Source: Verrucomicrobia bacterium S94
GTDB taxonomy: Bacteria > Verrucomicrobiota > Kiritimatiellia > Kiritimatiellales > Pontiellaceae
Direction of reading: 5' to 3'
DNA: 64,000 nucleotides
Assembly: GCA_004299845.1 (NCBI GenBank)
Contig: CP036201.1
Span: 3,596,001-3,660,000 of the forward strand
Every line of letters begins with the position of its first letter. Position 1 is the first letter of the stretch. Below the pieces are notes generated by a model. That model had not been told where the DNA came from and searched no databases. It saw only the letters and a program-made list of their open reading frames with translations. This document shows, one piece after another, positions 51,014 to 62,767 of the stretch. The position numbers were made by a program, and so were the translations under genes.

Positions 51014-52921
51014 ATGATTGATTTTATACAGGTGAGTAAACAGTTCGGCACACAGGATGTGCTCAAAAATGTGACGTTCCGGATCAATACCGGGGAACGG
51101 ATCGGGATTGTTGGCCCGAACGGGGCGGGAAAATCGACGGTATTCAGTCTGCTCAATCATGAGATTGAAGCGGATACCGGTGAAATTGTGCTGCCGAAGC
51201 ATTGCCGGATCGGGCATTTGAAGCAGCAGCTGAATCCGCACGAAGTGGATGTGAATCTGCTGGAATACACCGAGGATTCGATTCCCGAGCTGAAGACCAT
51301 TCCCGAAAAAATCCATGCGCTGGAACATCGAATGGACGATTTTCAGGAGCTGGAAAAGGAGCGTGCGCTGAAGCAGATCGGCGAGCTGCAGCATACTTAT
51401 GAGCACCTGGGCGGCTACGAAATGCGTTCGCGGGCGGAGGCGGCGCTGAGCGGACTGGGTTTTCATGAGGACGAATTCAGCCGCCCGTTCGCCTCGTTCT
51501 CCGGCGGCTGGCAGATGCGGGCCGAGCTGGCGCGAACGCTGATTGCTAATCCGGACCTGCTGATGCTCGACGAACCGTCGAACTTCCTCGACCTGCCGGC
51601 GGTGGAGTGGCTGCAGAAATTTCTGCGGGGGTATGAAGGTACCATGCTGCTGATTTCGCATGACCGCTATCTGCTGCGTTCGCTGGCGACGGTGACACTG
51701 GAAATTGCGGGGGGGCAGGCGACCCGATATCAGGGCGGCTATGATTATTATCTGACCGAGCGGGAGGACCGCATCCGCCATCAACTGGCGGCGAAGGAAA
51801 ACCAGGACCGCGAAATCGAGCAGATGGAAAGTTTCATCAAACGCTTCCGGGCCAAGTCGTCCAAGGCGGCACAGGTGCAGAGCCGGATTAAACAGCTGGA
51901 GAAAATGGAACGGATTGAGGCGCCGGCGACGGTGGCGAATACCTCGAAAATCCGTCTGGCGGATCCGCCGCATTCAGGGCATGAAATTATCCGCCTTGAA
52001 AAGGGCGGATTCTCCTACGACGGCTGCCGCTGGATTTTCCGGTTTCTGGATCTGAACATCAATCGCGGTGAAAAAATTGCGCTGGTCGGTTATAATGGAA
52101 TGGGAAAAACGACGCTGCTGCGGACGCTGGCCGGGGCGCTGGAGCTTTCGGAAGGCCGGCGCGTGGTCGGACATAAGGTGGTGATCGGTTATCAAAGCCA
52201 GGATTTCGCCGAAACCATGAATCCGGAAAAAACGGTGTATCATATTGTAAAGGATCAGCATCCGGCGGCTGTGGAATCCGAAGTGCGGAATTTACTCGGT
52301 GGATTCGGGTTCAGCGGCGACACGATTGATAAAAAGGTTTCTGTGCTCAGCGGTGGTGAAAAAATCCGGCTGGCCTTTGCGCGTCTTTTTATCAACCCGC
52401 CTAATTTTCTGCTGCTCGACGAGCCGACGACACATCTTGATGTTAACGGGCGTGAGGCACTTGAGCAGGCACTGAAGGATTACAAGGGCGCAATCTGTGT
52501 GGTGAGTCATGACGTCACGTTTGTGCGCAATATCGCTGATCAGATCATTCATATCGATGATAGCGGAGTTTCCCGGTTTCCCGGAAATTATGATTATTTT
52601 CTGGAGAAAAGTGAACAGCAGTCGGTCGGCAGGCCGCCGCAAACCGGTGAAAATGCTGTTTCCGGATCCGCTAAACCGTCTTTGAAGGGCAGGGATGCGC
52701 GTAAAGCGCGGGCGGCCCGGCGTGAAGCGGAAAAAGTTCTGAAAAAAATCGAGGCGAAAATCGAGAAACTGACGGAAGAGCAGGTTGTACTCACCGAGGA
52801 AATGATGTCAAAACGTGATGCCGATTTTGCCTCTATCAATGCCCGTCTGGCAGAAATTCAGACAGAAATTCAAAAGCTGGAAACGGAATGGGAATCTGCT
52901 GCAGAGGCGATCGAGGAATAG
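51014..52921 (+). CDS. ABC-F family ATPase
   Basis: Soluble ABC-F protein (635 residues), a family acting on the ribosome in translation or antibiotic protection. Two ATPase domains: first Walker A VGPNGAGKST (about 35), signature FSGGWQMR, Walker B LLMLDEPSNFLD; second Walker A VGYNGMGKTT (about 364), signature LSGGEKIRLA, Walker B LLLDEPTTHLD. Between them lies the charged ABC-F linker (about 235-300). A C-terminal Lys/Glu-rich coiled coil (about 555-635) resembles Uup-type proteins. There is no membrane segment, so it is not a transporter. The exact subfamily cannot be told from sequence reading alone. Confidence 0.9.
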   Translation: MIDFIQVSKQFGTQDVLKNVTFRINTGERIGIVGPNGAGKSTVFSLLNHEIEADTGEIVLPKHCRIGHLKQQLNPHEVDVNLLEYTEDSIPELKTIPEKIHALEHRMDDFQELEKERALKQIGELQHTYEHLGGYEMRSRAEAALSGLGFHEDEFSRPFASFSGGWQMRAELARTLIANPDLLMLDEPSNFLDLPAVEWLQKFLRGYEGTMLLISHDRYLLRSLATVTLEIAGGQATRYQGGYDYYLTEREDRIRHQLAAKENQDREIEQMESFIKRFRAKSSKAAQVQSRIKQLEKMERIEAPATVANTSKIRLADPPHSGHEIIRLEKGGFSYDGCRWIFRFLDLNINRGEKIALVGYNGMGKTTLLRTLAGALELSEGRRVVGHKVVIGYQSQDFAETMNPEKTVYHIVKDQHPAAVESEVRNLLGGFGFSGDTIDKKVSVLSGGEKIRLAFARLFINPPNFLLLDEPTTHLDVNGREALEQALKDYKGAICVVSHDVTFVRNIADQIIHIDDSGVSRFPGNYDYFLEKSEQQSVGRPPQTGENAVSGSAKPSLKGRDARKARAARREAEKVLKKIEAKIEKLTEEQVVLTEEMMSKRDADFASINARLAEIQTEIQKLETEWESAAEAIEE

Positions 52922-53041: not shown

Positions 53042-53076
53042 GTCGACTGATTAAAAACAGAGTTTAATCAGTTGAC
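53042..53076. promoter_or_regulatory. TetR-type operator, near-perfect inverted repeat
   Basis: GTCGACTGATTAAA (53042-53055) and TTTAATCAGTTGAC (53063-53076) match as inverted repeats at 13 of 14 positions with a 7-base spacer. Further half-sites of type TGATTAAA/TTAATC follow at about 53081-53097 and 53108-53115. Confidence 0.55.
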
Positions 53077-53099
53077 TAAATTAATCGTCTGATTAAATT
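53072..53099 (+). promoter_or_regulatory. Promoter of the first efflux operon
   Basis: TTGACT (53072-53077), a 16-base spacer and TAAATT (53094-53099), overlapped by the TGATTAAA half-sites, which fits repression by the TetR protein encoded next. Confidence 0.45.
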
Positions 53100-53131: not shown

Positions 53132-53776
53132 ATGACAGCTTATCCGGCAGCGGATTCGACGAAATCGCATCTGATTTGTGCAGCGGGCGAGCTCGCGGCA
53201 CTGCATGGCATTGATAACGTTTCGACCCGGGCGATTGCCGAACGGGCGGGGGAGAATATAGGGAGCATTCACTACCATTTTGGCGGTAAGGATGGACTCA
53301 TGGAGGAAATGGTCCGCGGAGCGATAGCGGGTTGCAGGCATGATGTGGAGCGCGAGGTGGTTGCTGAGCTGCCTGAGAAGCCGACCCCGGAGGAGCTTTC
53401 GAGTGCGGTGCGTCAGATTGTGGTGCGGGAAATGGATGATCTGTTCCGCTCGAACCGTCCGCTTTGGCATTCGCAGGTGATTTATCAGCTGATGCAGCGG
53501 GATGATGAATTGTATCGCATATTCCGCCGCGATGTGATGGAGCCGAATCTGGACAGCCTGTATCGCTTTTTAAGGCTTATTGATCCGTCGCTGACGGATG
53601 AACAGGCGTTTGCTCATGTGGCGATATTGAAAATGCCGATTTTTGCGCATGCGAACTATCGCAAGGCGATGCTGGATCATCTGGGTACAGAGGATTTTTC
53701 GGAATCCTATTTCCGGACGCTGGAAAACCTGCTGGTGAGGCAGACGCAATTGCTGCTGGGTCTGCCGCAAGATTGA
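53132..53776 (+). CDS. TetR-family repressor
   Basis: 214 residues from ATG 53132, preceded by GAGGAGGTTAA. The N-terminal helix-turn-helix (about 12-58) reads KSHLICAAGELAALHG, VSTRAIAERAGENIGSIHYHF, typical of TetR. The ligand-binding part has the DUF1956/CecR-like features of an efflux regulator. It precedes an RND efflux operon by 20 bases and probably represses itself and that operon through the repeats at 53042-53115. Confidence 0.92.
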   Translation: MTAYPAADSTKSHLICAAGELAALHGIDNVSTRAIAERAGENIGSIHYHFGGKDGLMEEMVRGAIAGCRHDVEREVVAELPEKPTPEELSSAVRQIVVREMDDLFRSNRPLWHSQVIYQLMQRDDELYRIFRRDVMEPNLDSLYRFLRLIDPSLTDEQAFAHVAILKMPIFAHANYRKAMLDHLGTEDFSESYFRTLENLLVRQTQLLLGLPQD

Positions 53777-53796
53777 ATTTTAACGGAGTGTATTGA

Positions 53797-54951
53797 ATGA
53801 AACTGAATAAAAAACTGATTACCGGAATCGGCGGCGGTGTACTGGCGCTTGTGGTTATTGCGCTCATTGCGGCTTCAGCGGTTCGCCGTAGAGAAGTTGC
53901 TCGGCATAATGATGAAGTTAAAATGCAGCACCAAAATACAGCGCGTCCGGTTCGTTGTGAACAGGTGAAGGCCGTTTTGCAACCGCGCATACGCTCGTAT
54001 CCCGGTGTGGTGAAGGCCACCGAAGAGGCCTCGCTTTCATTTCGTGTCGGCGGCCCGCTGACCCAGGTGAATGTGGTTCTCGGTGAACCGGTGAAAAAGG
54101 GAACCCTGCTGATGCAGATTGATCCTCGCGATTTTGAAGACCGGATTCTTTCGCTTGAAGCACAGCTTGAGGGCAAGGAAGCCAGTGCAGAAAATGCGCG
54201 ACAGGATTATCGGCGTGTTGCGGAGCTTTTTAAGGAAAAGGTGGTGCCGCAGGCGGATTATGACCGGGCTAAAAGTGTGATGGATTCTGCTGAGGCTGCG
54301 GTGAAAGATCTTAAGGCACAGCTCCGGATTGCCCGGCATGCCCTGCAGGATACGGCGCTGCTTGCGCCCTATGATGGAACCGTTACTGAACAGCGGGTTG
54401 AAAATTATGAAATGATCAGTCCCGGACAGGTGGTACTGCATTATCATGCTATTGATCAGCTTGAAATCAATGTGCATGTTCCGGAAAACGAAGTGGTTCA
54501 TGTCCCCATGGATGCGAAGGAACTGTTCGCGTATGTCACGTTTCCGGCCCTGCCGGGCCGGGAGTTTAAAGCCGGTCTGAAAGAGTGGAGCACAAGAGCG
54601 GATCCGATGACGCGGACCTACGCGGCCACGTTTGAAATGAAGGCGCCGGAATCCGGCCGTATTCTTCCCGGTATGACGGCCACGGTGACCTTCCGGGAAT
54701 CGTCTGAGCAGTCCAGAGCGATTACGCTGCCGGTATCCGCTGTGGCGTCGTCTGCGGACGGTGTTTCGGTAGTCTGGATCTACGACGAGGATACGGGCAC
54801 GGTCAGGCAGCGTGAAGTGCAGGTCGGCGAGCTGAACGGAACTTCGCGGGTGGTTATTACTGACGGGTTGCGTGAAGGTGAACTTGCGGTGGTTTCCGGC
54901 AGTCGGTTTCTGCATGAAGGCTGCCCGGTTCGTGTCGTTAACGATCAATAA
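53797..54951 (+). CDS. RND efflux periplasmic adaptor (HlyD/MFP family)
   Basis: Membrane-fusion protein, 384 residues, with an N-terminal membrane anchor (GGGVLALVVIALIAASAV). Barrel-sandwich and lipoyl parts (SLSFRVGGPLTQVNVVLGEPVKKGTLLMQID, then LLAPYDGTVTEQRV), a helical hairpin at about 115-180 and a beta-barrel domain follow. It links the inner-membrane pump encoded next with the TolC-like channel. Spacing to the pump gene is 11 bases. Confidence 0.93.
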   Translation: MKLNKKLITGIGGGVLALVVIALIAASAVRRREVARHNDEVKMQHQNTARPVRCEQVKAVLQPRIRSYPGVVKATEEASLSFRVGGPLTQVNVVLGEPVKKGTLLMQIDPRDFEDRILSLEAQLEGKEASAENARQDYRRVAELFKEKVVPQADYDRAKSVMDSAEAAVKDLKAQLRIARHALQDTALLAPYDGTVTEQRVENYEMISPGQVVLHYHAIDQLEINVHVPENEVVHVPMDAKELFAYVTFPALPGREFKAGLKEWSTRADPMTRTYAATFEMKAPESGRILPGMTATVTFRESSEQSRAITLPVSAVASSADGVSVVWIYDEDTGTVRQREVQVGELNGTSRVVITDGLREGELAVVSGSRFLHEGCPVRVVNDQ

Positions 54952-54962
54952 AGGGAACGATT

Positions 54963-57900
54963 ATGAATCCAGCAGCTTTTGCTTTAAAAAAACGTACCGT
55001 GATGGTTGTGATGACCGTCCTGCTGATTATCGCGGGATTGATGTCCTACCAGCGTCTCGGTCGTCTGGAAAATCCGAACTTCACCATCAAAACCGCGCTG
55101 GTGGTCACGCAGTATCCCGGCGCAAGCCCGGCCGAAGTGGAAGAGGAGGTCACGGATCCGATTGAGGAGGCGATTCAGGCGATGAGTCAGCTGAAAGAGG
55201 TCTATTCCACTTCTATGGAAGGGCTTTCGCTGATCTACGTTGATATCCAGGATACATATCAAAGTTCTGAACTGCCTCAGATCTGGGACGAGCTGCGCAA
55301 AAAGGTGGGTGATATGCAGGGCGAGCTGCCGCCCGGTGCCGGAACTCCGGTCATTAACGATGATTTCGGCGATGTGTACGGAGTTCTTTTTTCACTGACC
55401 GGTGAGGGGTATTCCTATGCTGATCTCAAAGCCTATGCCGAAGAACTGAAGACCGAACTGCTGAGTTGCGACGACGTCGCCCGCATTGCCTTCTGGGGGC
55501 TTCAGCAGGAAGTGATTTATGTTGAATTCGAACGCGCCCGCATTACAGAGCTGGGATTATCGCCCGAGCAGATTGCCGGCATCCTGCAGTCGCAGAACGT
55601 GGTGCAGCCGAGCGGCAAGGTTGAAATTGACGGCAATTATATCCGTATTACACCCACCGGAGATTTTGCCAGTGAACAGGTGATTGCCGATCTTTATGTC
55701 GGCGACGGAGACCGGCTGGTCCGGCTTGGCGATATTGCCACGGTTTCGCGGGGATACTACGACCCGAAATTTCAGATTATGACCTTTAACGGGGAACCCG
55801 CCATTGCAATCGGTATATCCACCGTTGCGGGCGGCAACGTCGTGACCATGGGCGAGTCCATTAAGGAAAAACTGGCCGAGCTGGAAAAGACGCGACCCGA
55901 AGGCATGGAGCTCAATTCCATTTATTACCAGAGCGAAATGGTGACCCAGGCGGTGAACGGTTTTGTGATGAATCTCATCCAGGCGGTGATCATTGTGATT
56001 GTTCTGCTGATGTTTTTCATGGGCTGGCAGAGCGGTCTGCTGATCGGTGCGGTATTGCTGCTCAATATCGCCGCTACGCTGCTGGGTATGTATATTATGG
56101 AGATCGAACTGCAGAAAATTTCGCTCGGTGCCCTGATTCTCGCACTCGGGATGCTGGTGGATAATGCCATCGTGGTTGCGGATGGGATTCTCATTCGCGT
56201 AGAGCGCGGGGAAAGCCGGGAAGAAGCTGCGGTTGACGTGGTGCGCGATACGCAATGGCCGCTGCTGGGAGCCACGTTTATTTCGATTCTTGCTTTTACG
56301 GCCATCGGTTTTGCGCCGGGTAACATCGGCGAGTTCTGCCGTTCGCTGTTTTATGTCATGCTGCTTTCACTGCTGATCAGCTGGGTACTGGCGGTTACAG
56401 TGACACCGCTGTTTTGTGTCTGGTTCCTGAAGATTCCGGATACGCACGGGGCGGATCCGTATGACAAGCCGATGTTCCGCCGCTACCGTAAGGTACTGCA
56501 TCTGACGGTTCATCACCGGATCATTACGGTGGGTGCCACGCTGATCCTGCTCTTTGCTGCATTCTTCGGTTTCCGGTTTGTGCCGCAGGCCTTTTTTCCG
56601 GGATCACCGACGCCATACTTTTTTGTGAATTACTGGCGGCCTGCGGGAACTCATATTGACCGCACAGCGGAGGATGTGGCCAAAATTGATGAATACATCC
56701 GTGCCATGGACGGCGTGAAGCAGACCTCCACGTTTGTGGGTGAGGGTACGTTGCGCTTTATGCTTTCCTACAATTATGAGACGCCGGATCCGAGTTACGG
56801 GATGATTCTCGTTGAAACGGAAGATTATCACGATATTCCGGAGATGGTGGAAAAGATTGATTTCTACCTCAAACAGAACTATTACGATGCGGAGCCCTAC
56901 TGCAGTAAAATTCCGAACGGGCCTGCGCTGGGCTTCTATGTGGAAGCCCGGTTTTCCGGTCCGGATAAAGCCGTGCTGGAGCAACTCGGCCGTCAGGCAC
57001 TGGAGATTATGCAGAACGAGCCTACGGCAAAAGATGTGCGGCTGGACTGGCGTCAGCAGGTGCAGGTGCTGCGCCCTGTATTTTCCGAAACACAGGCTCG
57101 CCGGGTCGGTGTGACCCGCGCGGATCTGGCCTCTTCGCTTCAGCTCAATTTCAACAGTACGCCGGTCGGGCTTTACCGCGAGGAGAATGAACTGATTCCG
57201 ATTCTGTTCCGGCCACCGGAATCAGAGCGTACATCCATCGATAATTTCGACCAGATTCAGGTGTGGAGTTCGGTCAGCAAAACCTTCATTCCGATCGGTC
57301 AGGTTGTGTCTGATCTGGAAAAAGTGTGGGAATGGCCCTACGTGATGCGCCGGGACCGCCGCAATACGATTACGGCACAGTGTAATCCCGTTCACGGCCT
57401 GCCCGAAACGCTGCGCCGTAAGATTGCGGATAAGATTGAGGCCATTGAACGGCCGCCGGGTTATCGTTTTGAGTGGGCGGGCGAAGCCGAAGAATCGGCC
57501 GAAGCACAGGCCCCGCTGGCGGCGACCTTCCCGTTGTGTATGCTGGGCATGTTTGTGATTACGATCTGGCTGTTTAACTCGGTGCGGCGTCCGATGATTA
57601 TCTTTATGTGTGTTCCGCTGTCGATCATCGGGGTGACTACCGCCTTACTGCTCACCGGTATGCCGTTCGGTTTTATGTCGATTCTCGGTTTCCTGGGGCT
57701 GTCGGGTATGCTGATCAAAAATGCCATCGTTCTGATTGATGAAATTGAACTGCAGCTGGAACGTGGAATTGAGCCGTATAAAGCGGTGCTCGATTCATCG
57801 GTCAGTCGTATGCGGCCGGTGATTATGGCGGCCGGAACCACGATTCTCGGTATGGCTCCGCTTCTGACCGATGCCCTGTATTCGGGGATGGCGGTTACTA

Positions 57901-58001
57901 TTATGGGGGGTCTTTTTGCGGCCACCTTCCTGACGCTGATTGTGGTGCCGGTGGTTTACACGCTCGTTTACCGCATCAAAGCGGATCAGGAACATCTTTA
58001 G
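54963..58001 (+). CDS. RND family efflux pump, inner-membrane subunit
   Basis: Complete AcrB/MdtB-like RND transporter, 1012 residues, with twelve predicted membrane helices in two halves. The N-terminal helix (VVMTVLLIIAGLMSYQRLG), porter domain start (TQYPGASPAEVEEEVTDPIEEA) and the proton-relay Asp in LILALGMLVDNAIVVADGI are clear. The second half repeats the pattern (GMLIKNAIVLIDEIELQLERG). Its drug or lipid substrate is unknown; the PagL-like and other membrane genes in the operon hint at envelope lipids. Confidence 0.95.
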   Translation: MNPAAFALKKRTVMVVMTVLLIIAGLMSYQRLGRLENPNFTIKTALVVTQYPGASPAEVEEEVTDPIEEAIQAMSQLKEVYSTSMEGLSLIYVDIQDTYQSSELPQIWDELRKKVGDMQGELPPGAGTPVINDDFGDVYGVLFSLTGEGYSYADLKAYAEELKTELLSCDDVARIAFWGLQQEVIYVEFERARITELGLSPEQIAGILQSQNVVQPSGKVEIDGNYIRITPTGDFASEQVIADLYVGDGDRLVRLGDIATVSRGYYDPKFQIMTFNGEPAIAIGISTVAGGNVVTMGESIKEKLAELEKTRPEGMELNSIYYQSEMVTQAVNGFVMNLIQAVIIVIVLLMFFMGWQSGLLIGAVLLLNIAATLLGMYIMEIELQKISLGALILALGMLVDNAIVVADGILIRVERGESREEAAVDVVRDTQWPLLGATFISILAFTAIGFAPGNIGEFCRSLFYVMLLSLLISWVLAVTVTPLFCVWFLKIPDTHGADPYDKPMFRRYRKVLHLTVHHRIITVGATLILLFAAFFGFRFVPQAFFPGSPTPYFFVNYWRPAGTHIDRTAEDVAKIDEYIRAMDGVKQTSTFVGEGTLRFMLSYNYETPDPSYGMILVETEDYHDIPEMVEKIDFYLKQNYYDAEPYCSKIPNGPALGFYVEARFSGPDKAVLEQLGRQALEIMQNEPTAKDVRLDWRQQVQVLRPVFSETQARRVGVTRADLASSLQLNFNSTPVGLYREENELIPILFRPPESERTSIDNFDQIQVWSSVSKTFIPIGQVVSDLEKVWEWPYVMRRDRRNTITAQCNPVHGLPETLRRKIADKIEAIERPPGYRFEWAGEAEESAEAQAPLAATFPLCMLGMFVITIWLFNSVRRPMIIFMCVPLSIIGVTTALLLTGMPFGFMSILGFLGLSGMLIKNAIVLIDEIELQLERGIEPYKAVLDSSVSRMRPVIMAAGTTILGMAPLLTDALYSGMAVTIMGGLFAATFLTLIVVPVVYTLVYRIKADQEHL

Positions 58002-58012
58002 GGAGAACAGAA

Positions 58013-59323
58013 ATGAAGAAATGGATTTTATTTGCGTTGATGATGCCGTTACTGGGCGCGGCTCAGACCAACGGGCTGAGCCTGGCGGATGTCCGGTTGA
58101 GGGTACTTGACGGCAACCCGTCTGTCCGCGAAGCAATCCAGCGTATTGCGGCTGCCGAAGCCGTGCTGACACAGGCGCGTTCGGCGTATCTGCCGACGGT
58201 TACATTGAGTGGGTCCTACGGCCATTTTGATGCGAGCCTTCATCCGGATATAGATGTCACAACGCGCTACAGCGACAGTTTTATTCAGGGGACCGGCGGT
58301 CTTCAGGCCAACTGGCTGCTGTTCGACGGTTTTGCCCGCGAAGCACGTTCGCTGGCGGCGAAATACGGTGTGCAGCAATCACACGAATTTGCTGCGGAGA
58401 CGCGACGGCTGCTGATTCAGTCTGCCACAGTTGCTTATCGGCAGGCTCAACTGGCCCGGGAAAATGTAGCCATTGCCCGGCGCGACCTCGCCTTTAACCG
58501 GAACCTTGAGGCGGATGCGCAGAAGCGTTTTAAAGCGGGGGATCTGCCGGAATCGGATGTGCATAACTTTTCTATCCGGGCGCTGCAGGCGGAGACTTCG
58601 GAACTGCAGGCGGAGCTGGACTATAAAACCGCCTGCACGATTCTTGCGGAGCTGATGGCTCTGCCTGAAGCCCGGCTTCCGGAATCCATGCAGCCGCTTT
58701 CGATTGATTTTGATGAAGGCGGATCCATTCCGGATCTGGAGAGTGCGTTCCGCTATGCGCTTGTGCATCGTCCGGACTACCAGGCGTTCACCTCCGGCCG
58801 ACTTGCTCTGGCCCAGCAGACGCGTGCGGCAAAAGGCGAAATGCTGCCCAAGATATTTCTGACCGGGGAAATGAATTATGCCGACCGCAGCGGTTATTCC
58901 ACGGCGGGGGATCACGGCAATTATGATTCGTTTGCCGGGGTGACAGCTTCCTGGGATCTTTTTTCCGGGGGGCGTAAAGCGGCGGCAGTGAAAGAGGCCC
59001 AGGCCGAAATGCGTGCACTGGAGCAGCAGCAGGAATCGCTACGTCTCTCCATCCGCTCTTCCTTGCAGAAACGGATTGATGAAGCGGCAATGAGTCGGGA
59101 GGTTTTTCTACGGGCGGAAAAAATCCATCAGCTTTCCGTTCAGGTGCGGGACAGTGTGGAAAAGTCCTATAAAGCCGGCATGGCCCCGATTACCCGTCTG
59201 AATGAGGTGCAGACCGATCTGGTCCGTGCGCGGGGTACTTACGCCTCTTCCTATATTGCCTATCAGTTGGTGCTGAATCAGCTCGATATTGAGACCGGCC
59301 GCATTCTGGCGGAACTCGAATAG
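58013..59323 (+). CDS. TolC-family outer-membrane channel
   Basis: 436 residues with a signal peptide (ILFALMMPLLGAAQT). Two OEP repeats with long helices (SVREAIQRIAAAEAVLTQARSAYLPTVTLSG; DSVEKSYKAGMAPITRLNEVQTDLVRARGTY in parts) are typical of TolC/NodT proteins. It is the exit duct for the RND pump. A good ribosome-binding site (AGGGAGA) precedes it and the next gene follows after 10 bases. Confidence 0.93.
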   Translation: MKKWILFALMMPLLGAAQTNGLSLADVRLRVLDGNPSVREAIQRIAAAEAVLTQARSAYLPTVTLSGSYGHFDASLHPDIDVTTRYSDSFIQGTGGLQANWLLFDGFAREARSLAAKYGVQQSHEFAAETRRLLIQSATVAYRQAQLARENVAIARRDLAFNRNLEADAQKRFKAGDLPESDVHNFSIRALQAETSELQAELDYKTACTILAELMALPEARLPESMQPLSIDFDEGGSIPDLESAFRYALVHRPDYQAFTSGRLALAQQTRAAKGEMLPKIFLTGEMNYADRSGYSTAGDHGNYDSFAGVTASWDLFSGGRKAAAVKEAQAEMRALEQQQESLRLSIRSSLQKRIDEAAMSREVFLRAEKIHQLSVQVRDSVEKSYKAGMAPITRLNEVQTDLVRARGTYASSYIAYQLVLNQLDIETGRILAELE

Positions 59324-59333
59324 GAGAAAACAT

Positions 59334-60032
59334 ATGAATTCTGATTCCGGATATACAATGGATATTATGAAGAGTTTGATCCTGTGTATGGTTTGCGTTC
59401 TGATTTCGGTGCTCATGATCAGGATTGATGCGGGAATGGTTGCTGAAACATCAGGATTTGGGGAAAATTCGGCCACGGAAAGAATGCAGCTGGTCTATCT
59501 GTTTTTCTCTGCGGTCATTTTTGCCCGCACAGCTGTGCATGTTGAAGAGTGGCGCAGTCTGTCGATTCTGATGGCCGGCGGAACGCTGGTGATGATGATC
59601 CGGGAAATGGATGGAGCGCTGGACCATCTTTACCATGGAGCCTGGTTTCCCTTTGCTGTTTTGACCGGGAGCATTACGTTGACGCTTGCGTGGCGGTGGC
59701 GCGGGCAGCTTCAGCGGAACCTGGAAGTCTTTCTATATACTCCCGCGTTCGGGGCCTTACTGGCGGCCGGTCTTTCGATCTTTGTGTTTTCCCGCCTGTT
59801 TGGAATGAAGGATTTGTGGGAATCGGTTTTCGGAGTAGAGCAGCTTGCGACGGTTCAACGCTGGGTGAAGAATGCGGTGGAAGAAGGCAGTGAACTGTTC
59901 GGTTACACGCTGCTGTTTCTTTCCGCATACGGATTTAACCGGTTTTCAACCCGGTTTATAGATCTGACCCTGTGCTGCAGACATGAACAGCCTGCGGAAG
60001 CGGCAGGTGCTGAACGGGTACATGCATCATGA
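59334..60032 (+). CDS. Unknown six-helix membrane protein in the efflux operon
   Basis: 232 residues from ATG 59334 with AGGAG at 59322-59326. About six hydrophobic helices are visible (LILCMVCVLISVLMI, LVYLFFSAVIFARTAV, LSILMAGGTLVMMI, WFPFAVLTGSITLTLAW, FGALLAAGLSIFVFSRLFG, YTLLFLSAYGFN). I do not recognise the family. It overlaps the next small gene by 4 bases (ATGA), so both are part of the TolC-RND operon and may act with the PagL-like enzyme in envelope remodelling. Confidence 0.7.
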   Translation: MNSDSGYTMDIMKSLILCMVCVLISVLMIRIDAGMVAETSGFGENSATERMQLVYLFFSAVIFARTAVHVEEWRSLSILMAGGTLVMMIREMDGALDHLYHGAWFPFAVLTGSITLTLAWRWRGQLQRNLEVFLYTPAFGALLAAGLSIFVFSRLFGMKDLWESVFGVEQLATVQRWVKNAVEEGSELFGYTLLFLSAYGFNRFSTRFIDLTLCCRHEQPAEAAGAERVHAS

Positions 60033-60292
60033 GTGTAAAAAAGAAACTGTTCCTTTTTTCGGTTGCTGCGGTGATGTCCTTTTTCGGGCTGATATTTCTG
60101 GCCGGAATCATCTGGTCGGTGGTTCCGATCTTCGGGAATACCCTGCCGCATCACCTGGCGGAGTGGTCCGGCGTATCGTTTAAATGGTCGGCTCTGCTGG
60201 TCTCTGCGCTGCTTGGTGTGGTGTGTGTCGGCTGCATTACCGCGAGTGCGGTGATCCACGCGCTGGCCACGGATACGGAACTGGACTGGTAG
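60029..60292 (+). CDS. Unknown small two-helix membrane protein
   Basis: 87 residues with two hydrophobic helices (LFLFSVAAVMSFFGLIFLAGI and SALLVSALLGVVCVGCITAS). No family recognised. It is translationally coupled to the six-helix protein upstream and lies 3 bases before the PagL-like gene. Confidence 0.6.
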   Translation: MSVKKKLFLFSVAAVMSFFGLIFLAGIIWSVVPIFGNTLPHHLAEWSGVSFKWSALLVSALLGVVCVGCITASAVIHALATDTELDW

Positions 60293-60295
60293 GCT

Positions 60296-60829
60296 GTGCG
60301 TCGGATATTTCAGATAGGATTCATCCTTCTGCTTTGCATGAGGGTCGATGCCGGGGGAGGACTCTATTTCGGTGTAGGGGCCGGCCCTCAGGGCGGAACA
60401 TTGACGGAACCGGACCAATACAATGCCGTGGTTGATCTCGGGTATATGTTTTATTCCAAGGAATGGACCCGGGTGGAATTTGATCTCGGGGCCGGCGTTA
60501 CCTGGCTGGGCAGCAATGAACACAAAGATGCGGTTTACGCTTTTTCAATTATTCCCGCTCTCCGGTTGTATTTCTGGAACACTGCATCGTTTCGGACATA
60601 TGTAATGGCTGCTGCCGGTCCTACCTATCTGACGGAGAGCTATCTCGGAAACATGGAACTGGGCGGATATTTTGCCTTTAACGATTTTGTGGGAGTCGGC
60701 GTGCGGTTCGGTGAGGAAGAGAAATGGAATGCAACCCTGGGGTGGCGTCACATTTCCAACGCCGGGCTGTTCAGGCCGAACCGCGGATTCGATGTGCCGG
60801 TCTATTTTCTGCTCGGTAAAAAGCTGTAA
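60296..60829 (+). CDS. PagL-like lipid A 3-O-deacylase (acyloxyacyl hydrolase)
   Basis: Outer-membrane beta-barrel of 177 residues with GTG start and signal peptide (IFQIGFILLLCMRVDAG). The C-terminal motif WRHISNAGLFRPNRGFD matches the PagL signature H-x-S-N-x(5)-P-N-x-G. His152 and Ser154 are the expected catalytic residues. The third member, Glu in known PagL, appears as Asp166, twelve residues after the Ser. PagL removes the 3-O-acyl chain of lipid A in the outer membrane. Its place at the end of an RND efflux operon is unusual. Confidence 0.85.
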   Translation: MRRIFQIGFILLLCMRVDAGGGLYFGVGAGPQGGTLTEPDQYNAVVDLGYMFYSKEWTRVEFDLGAGVTWLGSNEHKDAVYAFSIIPALRLYFWNTASFRTYVMAAAGPTYLTESYLGNMELGGYFAFNDFVGVGVRFGEEEKWNATLGWRHISNAGLFRPNRGFDVPVYFLLGKKL

Positions 60830-60924
60830 TTCCGCGCCGGTGTACCGTTCCGCCGGACATCTGTTTTCCGGGAACATACTGCGCTCATAACCCGCTCATA
60901 AACATACGCTAAATAAACGGGCTT

Positions 60925-60953
60925 TTGCTTGTATACCTACTTGGAGGTATGTA
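60925..60953 (+). promoter_or_regulatory. Promoter with TetR-type operator before the second efflux operon
   Basis: TTGCTT (60925-60930), a 17-base spacer and TATGTA (60948-60953). An inverted repeat ATACCT...AGGTAT (60933-60950) fills the spacer, so a bound TetR repressor would block the promoter. Confidence 0.5.
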
Positions 60954-60984
60954 TAAACGCGGCGCTTAACGGTGAGGTCATTGC

Positions 60985-61590
60985 ATGGCACGGCGGACAA
61001 AAGAAGAGGCGGCACAGACCCGGATTGATATTCTGGAGGCGGCGCTCAGAATCTTTTCAGAAAAAGGTTATTCGAGAACAACCTTTGTGGATATTGCTGC
61101 GGAAATCGGCCGCTCAAAAGGTGCGGTTTACTGGCATTTCAAAACCAAGACCGATTTGCTGGCGGCGGTCATTATCTATGCAGAAGAGCGCCTGTGTAAA
61201 GGCACTTCCGCACTGCCGGATTCGGTAGAGGAGATGCGTGAGCATGTGCTGGAATACGCCCGTCTGTTTGTCTGTGATGAGCGGGCGTGGCAGTTTGAAT
61301 TTTTCTGTTCGTTTCAGATTGAGTGGTCGACGGAGATGATGGAGGAAGTGCGGGAAAAGCTGAAGACGCTGCGCGATGATCCGATGCAGTTGCTGGTGGA
61401 AAAACTGGATCACCTGCAGGAGATAGGTGCGCTAAAGCGCGATAAAAAGGCTGAGACACTGGCCCGGTGTTTCGGCGCGGTGTGGGTGGGCGCGGTACAT
61501 CTGTCTATGTATGGAGATATCGGCCGTGAAAAATTTATTGAAGTGCTGATGGATGGGTTCGATCTGGTGATCGGCAGTCAGAAGGCCTAG
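60985..61590 (+). CDS. TetR/AcrR-family repressor
   Basis: 201 residues. The N-terminal DNA-binding domain, MARRTKEEAAQTRIDILEAA followed by FSEKGYSRTTFVDIAAEIGRSKGAVYWHFKTK, is that of AcrR/TtgR-type efflux regulators. The rest is the helical ligand-binding domain. It precedes a second RND adaptor-pump pair by 25 bases and probably represses it via the inverted repeat at 60933-60950. Confidence 0.94.
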   Translation: MARRTKEEAAQTRIDILEAALRIFSEKGYSRTTFVDIAAEIGRSKGAVYWHFKTKTDLLAAVIIYAEERLCKGTSALPDSVEEMREHVLEYARLFVCDERAWQFEFFCSFQIEWSTEMMEEVREKLKTLRDDPMQLLVEKLDHLQEIGALKRDKKAETLARCFGAVWVGAVHLSMYGDIGREKFIEVLMDGFDLVIGSQKA

Positions 61591-61615: not shown

Positions 61616-62767
61616 ATGTTGAAACAGATTATAGCTATTGTCGTATTCATTGTGACGTTCGCAGTGGGTATCGGCGTCGGAATTTTTGCCGGGAAAATGA
61701 TGTCCATGGATATGTCGGCCATGATGGGTGGGCCCGGAGAAATGCCTCCGCCGGCGGTGAAGGCGATTGAAGTTGCGGAGGGACCGGTGGATGTGCGGGA
61801 GGAATATATCGCCTCCGTTGAGCCGGTTCAGCAGGTGAGGGTGAAAACCGAGGTTGCGGGGTATATCGATGAAGTGCACTTTACGGAAGGCTCGATGGTG
61901 AAGGCGGGCGATCTGCTTTTTACGGTGGATCAGAAACGGTATCAGTCGATGGTGGAGGCCCGCGAGGCCGATCTGGCCAGCGCGGAGGCCGAGCTCAACC
62001 GGGCAGAGCGTTATTTTGAGCGGATTGAAAAAGCCGGCAGCAGTGTGTCGCAATCCGATAAGGATCAGGCTGAAGCGCTGAAACTGCAGGCAATGGCCAA
62101 CCTGAAACAAGCCGAAGCCAATCTAACTGTGGCCCGGCTGGATCTTGAATATTCGGAAATCCGTGCCCCGATCGATGGGCGCATTGGGGCGGCACTGGTT
62201 ACAAAGGGTAACTATATTGATCCCATGATGGGTGAGACGCTGGCAACCATTGTTCAGCTGGATCCGGTCCGCGTAGTTTTTTCGGTCACTGACCGGGCTT
62301 ATCTTCAGTATCGCGAACGCGTCACTGCGGGCTCCACTGATGAACTGGTCGCTCGGGTTCGTCTGCCGACCGGAACAGAACTTCCCGCCATCGGAAAAAA
62401 GGATTTTGATGATAATACCATGAATGAGCGTACTGGAACGATGACTGTGCGTTATCTGTTTGATAATCCGGATGAACTGCTGGTGCCTGGGGGATATGTT
62501 TCCATTCTCGTCGGTCCGGCGGACCGGCCGGCGGGTATTCGTATTCCGCAACAGGCGATTCTGGTCGACCAGGAGGGGCCCTATGTTCTGACTGCAGATA
62601 AAGAGGGCACAATCGGGGTTGCACGCGTTACGCTCGGTGAACCGGTTGAAAAGGATTATGTGATTACGTCGGGGTTGAAGTCCGGTGACCGTGTGGTGGT
62701 AGACGGTGTGCAGAAAGTACAGCCGGGAGCTTCCGCAACCGTTACGCTTATGGAGGCGGCACAATGA
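61616..62767 (+). CDS. RND efflux periplasmic adaptor (second system)
   Basis: Membrane-fusion protein, 383 residues, with an N-terminal anchor (IIAIVVFIVTFAVGIGVGIFAG) and a short Met-rich stretch (MMSMDMSAMMG) before the lipoyl domain (VKTEVAGYIDEVHFTEGSMVKAGDLLFTVD in parts). Helical hairpin at about 115-165, barrel domain with VQLDPVRVVFSVTDRAYLQY. Its end overlaps the pump gene by 4 bases (ATGA). Confidence 0.93.
   Translation: MLKQIIAIVVFIVTFAVGIGVGIFAGKMMSMDMSAMMGGPGEMPPPAVKAIEVAEGPVDVREEYIASVEPVQQVRVKTEVAGYIDEVHFTEGSMVKAGDLLFTVDQKRYQSMVEAREADLASAEAELNRAERYFERIEKAGSSVSQSDKDQAEALKLQAMANLKQAEANLTVARLDLEYSEIRAPIDGRIGAALVTKGNYIDPMMGETLATIVQLDPVRVVFSVTDRAYLQYRERVTAGSTDELVARVRLPTGTELPAIGKKDFDDNTMNERTGTMTVRYLFDNPDELLVPGGYVSILVGPADRPAGIRIPQQAILVDQEGPYVLTADKEGTIGVARVTLGEPVEKDYVITSGLKSGDRVVVDGVQKVQPGASATVTLMEAAQ

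Follow-up and report, generated by a model that had tools for sequence, protein, structure and literature searches.

Efflux and the outer-membrane barrier act jointly, usually linked through distant regulators only. The genome of Verrucomicrobia bacterium S94 (a marine Pontiella-type bacterium of the Kiritimatiellae; 4.11 Mb, single contig) raises the question whether such a link can also be encoded in cis: in the window, i.e. the stretch of 64,000 nucleotides analysed here, a gene for a PagL-family lipid A deacylase closes a string of seven genes that starts with a TetR-family regulator and the components of an RND exporter (Table 1). The reading favoured in the following, and held with modest confidence, is that of a TetR-switched tripartite RND exporter with an envelope-remodelling tail, encoded in one transcription unit.

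Table 1. Features of the RND-PagL locus and of the adjoining downstream unit (window positions).
Feature	Position	Strand	Matches and remarks
Operator array, palindromes of form TTTARTCRNYTGAYTAAA	53038-53115		precedes tetR1
TetR1, TetR-family regulator	53132-53776	+	PF00440 (TetR_N) 5.3e-13; weak CecR-like C-terminal match PF09209 0.016
RND periplasmic adaptor	53797-54951	+	TIGR01730 1.9e-76; HlyD_D23 2.3e-16
RND1, RND permease	54963-58001	+	PF00873 (ACR_tran) 2.3e-161; NF033617 5.6e-133, below its cut-off
TolC1, TolC-family outer-membrane channel	58013-59323	+	PF02321 (OEP) 1.4e-52
TM6, six-helix inner-membrane protein	59334-60032	+	widespread unnamed family; predicted structure pLDDT 91; no Pfam above cut-off
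TM2, two-helix membrane protein	60029-60292	+	motif WSxxPxxGxTLP...F...ALxxS; mostly at RND/OEP operon ends in genus
PagL-family lipid A 3-O-deacylase	60296-60829	+	GTG start; PF09411 1.4e-18; signal-peptide-like N terminus; triad H152, S154, D166
Weak terminator-like hairpin 3' of pagL	60837-60856	+	density of such hairpins in scan not above chance
Operator-like palindrome TATACCTACTTGGAGGTATGTATA of TetR2 unit	60932-60955 (approximate)		conserved in relatives; bounds first operon downstream
TetR2	60985-61590		Pfam match
MFP2	61616-62767		Pfam match
RND2	follows MFP2		Pfam match

The seven genes run head to tail on one strand (53132-60829), as laid out in the initial annotation, with intergenic distances of 20, 11, 11, 10, −4 and 3 bp, the negative value denoting the overlap of the TM2 start with the end of TM6; upstream, an ABC-F gene ends at position 52921. 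The palindrome array in front of tetR1 encloses a promoter-like site (−35 TTGACT, 53072-53077; −10 TAAATT, 53094-53099), i.e. a putative operator lies over the presumed operon promoter as is typical of TetR-regulated operons. Palindromes of this type were matched 11 times in the window at up to three mismatches (1.06 expected; none of 100 window shuffles reached that total), and the motif was also present upstream of tetR in the six relatives compared and in part in G013. The co-expression postulated at the outset is thus well supported by the spacing, the overlap, the single operator/promoter array in front and the separate operator of the next unit: from these sequence features we infer that the seven genes are co-transcribed and switched by TetR1, for which the palindromes would constitute the binding sites. 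A wider TetR1 regulon covering LPS genes was rejected, since the operator is clustered at only two places of the genome, here and at 1550640. The latter cluster (G000:C1:1550640-1550675; L193) has a −35-like TTGACA beside it, precedes V-type ATPase genes and is directly followed by a short ATG frame.

The composition of the operon was compared among seven species of the genus, namely that of the window and six others whose operon includes TM2. All seven operons contained TM2, four contained TM6 and two PagL: the complete order was kept in one other species (G027), two species possessed six genes without PagL (G009, G001), and three contained the four core genes plus TM2 (G017, G005, G022; G017 with a distant PagL at another genome place). 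In species without operon-borne PagL, TM2 directly precedes the next unit. Beside the related pumps of G013 (TolC of 45% identity) and G033, neither TM2 nor TM6 nor PagL was found. According to this pattern, individual lineages gained or lost PagL separately. Conservation of the seven-gene order, named in the initial annotation as a check of its proposal, therefore holds for a single sister species, but had to be rejected as a general rule (one of six), as had the presence of PagL in all relatives (missing from five of seven operons).

This distribution gives weight to a rival explanation: pagL might be a late, lineage-specific insertion that is transcribed from the pump promoter but has no functional link to the pump, TM6 and TM2 perhaps being likewise only loosely kept. 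Besides the restriction of the operon-borne gene to two species, that of the window and G027, and the position of the next unit directly after TM2 elsewhere, the scattered occurrence of PagL over the phylum agrees with it (62 of the 388 genomes surveyed scored above the PagL cut-off, mostly without an adjacent RND gene). However, pagL is approximately 80% identical between both species, with catalytic motif and operon position kept, and in separate branches of the PagL tree linkage to genes of a different RND subfamily came about; a mere passenger is for this reason considered rather unlikely.

Among the PagL loci fetched, an RND gene was located directly upstream of pagL on the same strand in five further genomes of the class: in G145 of family f21 (distance between RND stop and pagL start of 79 bp) and in G139, G299, G134 and G148 of family f20 (approximately 370, 22, 3 and 3 bp, respectively). 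OEP and/or adaptor genes followed further upstream where the contig reached that far. The linked RND proteins of f20 and f21 were 38-40% identical to each other versus 22-23% to RND1. In the PagL tree, the RND-linked proteins fell into three separate groups (window genus, f21 and f20), and the well supported branches require the RND-linked label to change at least four times. By chance, approximately 0.1-0.2 RND-pagL adjacencies would be expected in 62 loci (4-18 RND matches per genome in ten surveyed genomes; approximately 3500 genes assumed), a post hoc comparison in which the f20 members are related to one another. Outside the class, no RND-linked pagL was present among the loci checked, and the other PagL loci checked were unlinked to RND genes. 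In the openly licensed papers searched, no report of a pagL-RND operon was found, which is not proof of its absence. By this recurrence, related bacteria coupled PagL with efflux pumps on separate occasions, each time with pumps unrelated to the present one, which suggests a joint induction of efflux and outer-membrane remodelling. The tie between efflux and changes of the outer leaflet, as proposed before, is in consequence supported indirectly, by PagL at the tails of RND operons that are unrelated to this one and belong to two other families, and by the gene neighbours of TM6 relatives (see below). Against it counts that the operon lacks PagL in five of the seven species and that most other PagL carriers of the phylum have the gene away from RND genes; the observation named in the initial annotation as refuting, a pagL gene separate in relatives, was hence made in part.

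The two membrane proteins between channel and PagL, designated as unknown in the initial annotation, indeed matched no Pfam or NCBIfam family above cut-off. TM6 is predicted to consist of six long membrane helices and also lacked a sequence or fold match in the PDB; its assignment to a known family or fold was thus rejected. An alignment of 37 distinct members from Kiritimatiellae, Bacteroidota, gamma- and alphaproteobacteria and others revealed 11 invariant residues, many of them charged (E44, R90, E91, W104, S153, R154, G157, W162, K179, E184, E187). With regard to gene neighbourhood, TM6 followed lpxK and/or a GT9 heptosyltransferase gene at four loci (L019, L021, L023, L024), adjoined hldD-hldE-gmhA-like genes at a fifth (L022), and was placed directly after periplasmic-glucan genes at three others (mdoG-mdoH in L061 and L068, opgC-opgG-opgH in L077); polysaccharide genes were its neighbours in L227 (glycosyltransferases) and L241 (NDP-sugar dehydrogenase and flippase), and a nucleotidyltransferase gene in Marinifilum (L048). 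RND operons with TM6 were likewise encountered elsewhere: in the order MFP-RND-OEP-TM6 with an unrelated RND and a distance of 1 bp in G173, as TM6-MarR-OEP-MFP-RND in G452, and as an RND/TM6/TetR locus in a Desulfobacterales MAG. Many other members stand alone or adjoin unrelated genes; with neighbourhoods this mixed, TM6 could be classified neither as a strictly RND-associated nor as a strictly LPS-associated gene. The placement after opgGH (around 5700-6600 in L061, L068 and L077) concerns Enterobacterales and Rhodobacterales. TM6 of the window is approximately 45% identical to that of Marinifilum versus approximately 21-27% to the proteins of other orders and families of its own class, which hints at a transfer. 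The lpxK gene of the window genome adjoins its heptosyltransferase gene, with no TM6 at that place.

Ten TM2 proteins share the motif WSxxPxxGxTLP. TM2 is situated at the end of the operon in the seven species, and paralogues were detected next to another RND operon (L040, 8505-8795) and after a NodT-type channel gene (L041, 2363-2635); a further one (L043, 9217-9498) is part of an oxidoreductase cluster with no RND gene nearby. The constancy of TM2 wherever the close version of the pump is encoded (the more distant G013 pump being without it), its paralogues behind other RND/OEP genes and the position of TM6 immediately beside OEP in an RND operon unrelated to this one would fit a plain efflux operon, in which TM6 and TM2 are accessory subunits of the RND system and PagL is incidental. 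Most TM6 proteins, however, have no RND neighbour and are often encoded next to LPS or glycan genes or alone, so that TM6 cannot be solely a pump subunit; this explanation is regarded as improbable. A broader view, put forward here as a tentative possibility, is that TM6 founds a new inner-membrane family whose members modify, carry or sense a glycolipid or glycan of the envelope (lipid A/LPS core, periplasmic glucans), and that Kiritimatiellae repeatedly fix TM6 and/or PagL onto unrelated RND pumps, giving rise to operons of efflux plus remodelling. The locus thereby draws attention to an unnamed six-helix family that spans several phyla and has genes for lipid A, LPS core and periplasmic glucans among its neighbours.

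The pump itself is of conventional build: adaptor, RND permease and TolC-type channel are encoded together (Pfam, NCBIfam matches), which defines a tripartite RND efflux system, and RND1 is a permease of the standard ACR_tran/HAE type, in which the Asp motif (LVDNAIVV) and the Lys motif (LIKNAIVL) for transport are present. By NCBIfam cut-offs, RND1 belonged to none of the named multidrug permease subfamilies (best match NF033617, 445 bits versus 1250 required). Its proton-relay motif reads VDN instead of VDD, i.e. contains a single Asp, and the Lys motif is kept. The export of a lipid or membrane-active compound that had been suggested for this pump found no support beyond co-localisation. 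A pump for a lipid, a lipid A fragment or a membrane-active product, which PagL would process or to which it would adapt the surface, could draw in addition on the TM6 kin near lipid A genes; given the standard type of RND1, the drug-pump-like TetR and a unit without biosynthesis genes, it is very improbable.

PagL, the only member found in the genome, scored 67.7 bits against PF09411 (gathering cut-off 23). Its sequence identity to P. aeruginosa PagL (PDB 2erv) is low (phmmer 2.5e-5); the AF2 model (pLDDT 80.5) displays an eight-stranded barrel with 2erv as top fold match (TM-score of 0.85-0.86 on the target). His152, Ser154, Asn155, Asn162 and Gly164 were invariant in an alignment of 19 relatives, many of which share the acidic Asp166; in the alignment with 2erv, Asp166 stands at the position of Glu140, the third triad residue of the P. 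aeruginosa enzyme. Since LpxK is encoded in the same genome as the window PagL, the existence of a lipid A pathway is likely. That the protein is no active deacylase but fulfils another role in the outer membrane, as the Asp in place of Glu and the low identity to the P. aeruginosa protein might indicate, is hardly credible in view of the frequent Asp at this position in relatives, the invariant His and Ser and the PagL fold, which argue for a probable 3-O-deacylase.

With a TetR-switched exporter and its envelope-remodelling tail as the preferred reading, the following course of events may be envisaged from the sequence data. TetR1 would occupy the palindrome array over its own promoter until released by an inducer, presumably amphiphilic, and adaptor, permease and channel would then remove the inducing compound. 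TM2 may be a small pump-associated membrane protein, and TM6, located in the inner membrane, may act on or sense a glycolipid or glycan of the envelope, of LPS type or other; PagL would remove the 3-O acyl chain from outer-leaflet lipid A. Uptake and export would in this way be adjusted at the same time. A slight increase in outer-membrane permeability is described for PagL in E. coli (PMC3806461), so that a simple barrier-tightening model does not fit; more likely than a tighter barrier, the benefit of PagL would be altered packing or an altered response to detergents or peptides.

The locus shares TetR regulator, adaptor, permease, channel and an operator over the tetR promoter with known TetR-regulated RND operons (AcrR-AcrAB, MtrR-MtrCDE, CecR-type), but differs from these in the three additional envelope genes, one of them for a lipid A deacylase, and in a permease below the named multidrug cut-offs. 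Some exporters have small membrane proteins encoded alongside them or attached to them, such as AaeX and AcrZ (the latter in the case of AcrB); a comparable part is proposed for TM2, which matches no sequence family. Salmonella PagL is under PhoPQ control. The window protein has family, eight-strand barrel fold, His/Ser and SNA motif in common with PagL of P. aeruginosa (PA4661) and Salmonella, whereas it deviates in the Asp as third triad residue and in the location of its gene inside a pump operon, the known controls acting in trans. The closest regulatory parallel considered is ParRS of P. aeruginosa, which controls mexXY, arn and pagL (PMC3848899): efflux and lipid A modification including pagL are likewise placed under one regulator, but by a two-component system and with scattered genes, in contrast to the apparently single TetR-controlled operon described here. 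If true, a cis-encoded and repeatedly assembled link would make the synergy of efflux and barrier testable gene by gene. As to the surroundings of the operon, the TetR2-MFP2-RND2 unit adjoins it in most relatives with its own palindrome conserved; the genus thus retains both RND operons in tandem.
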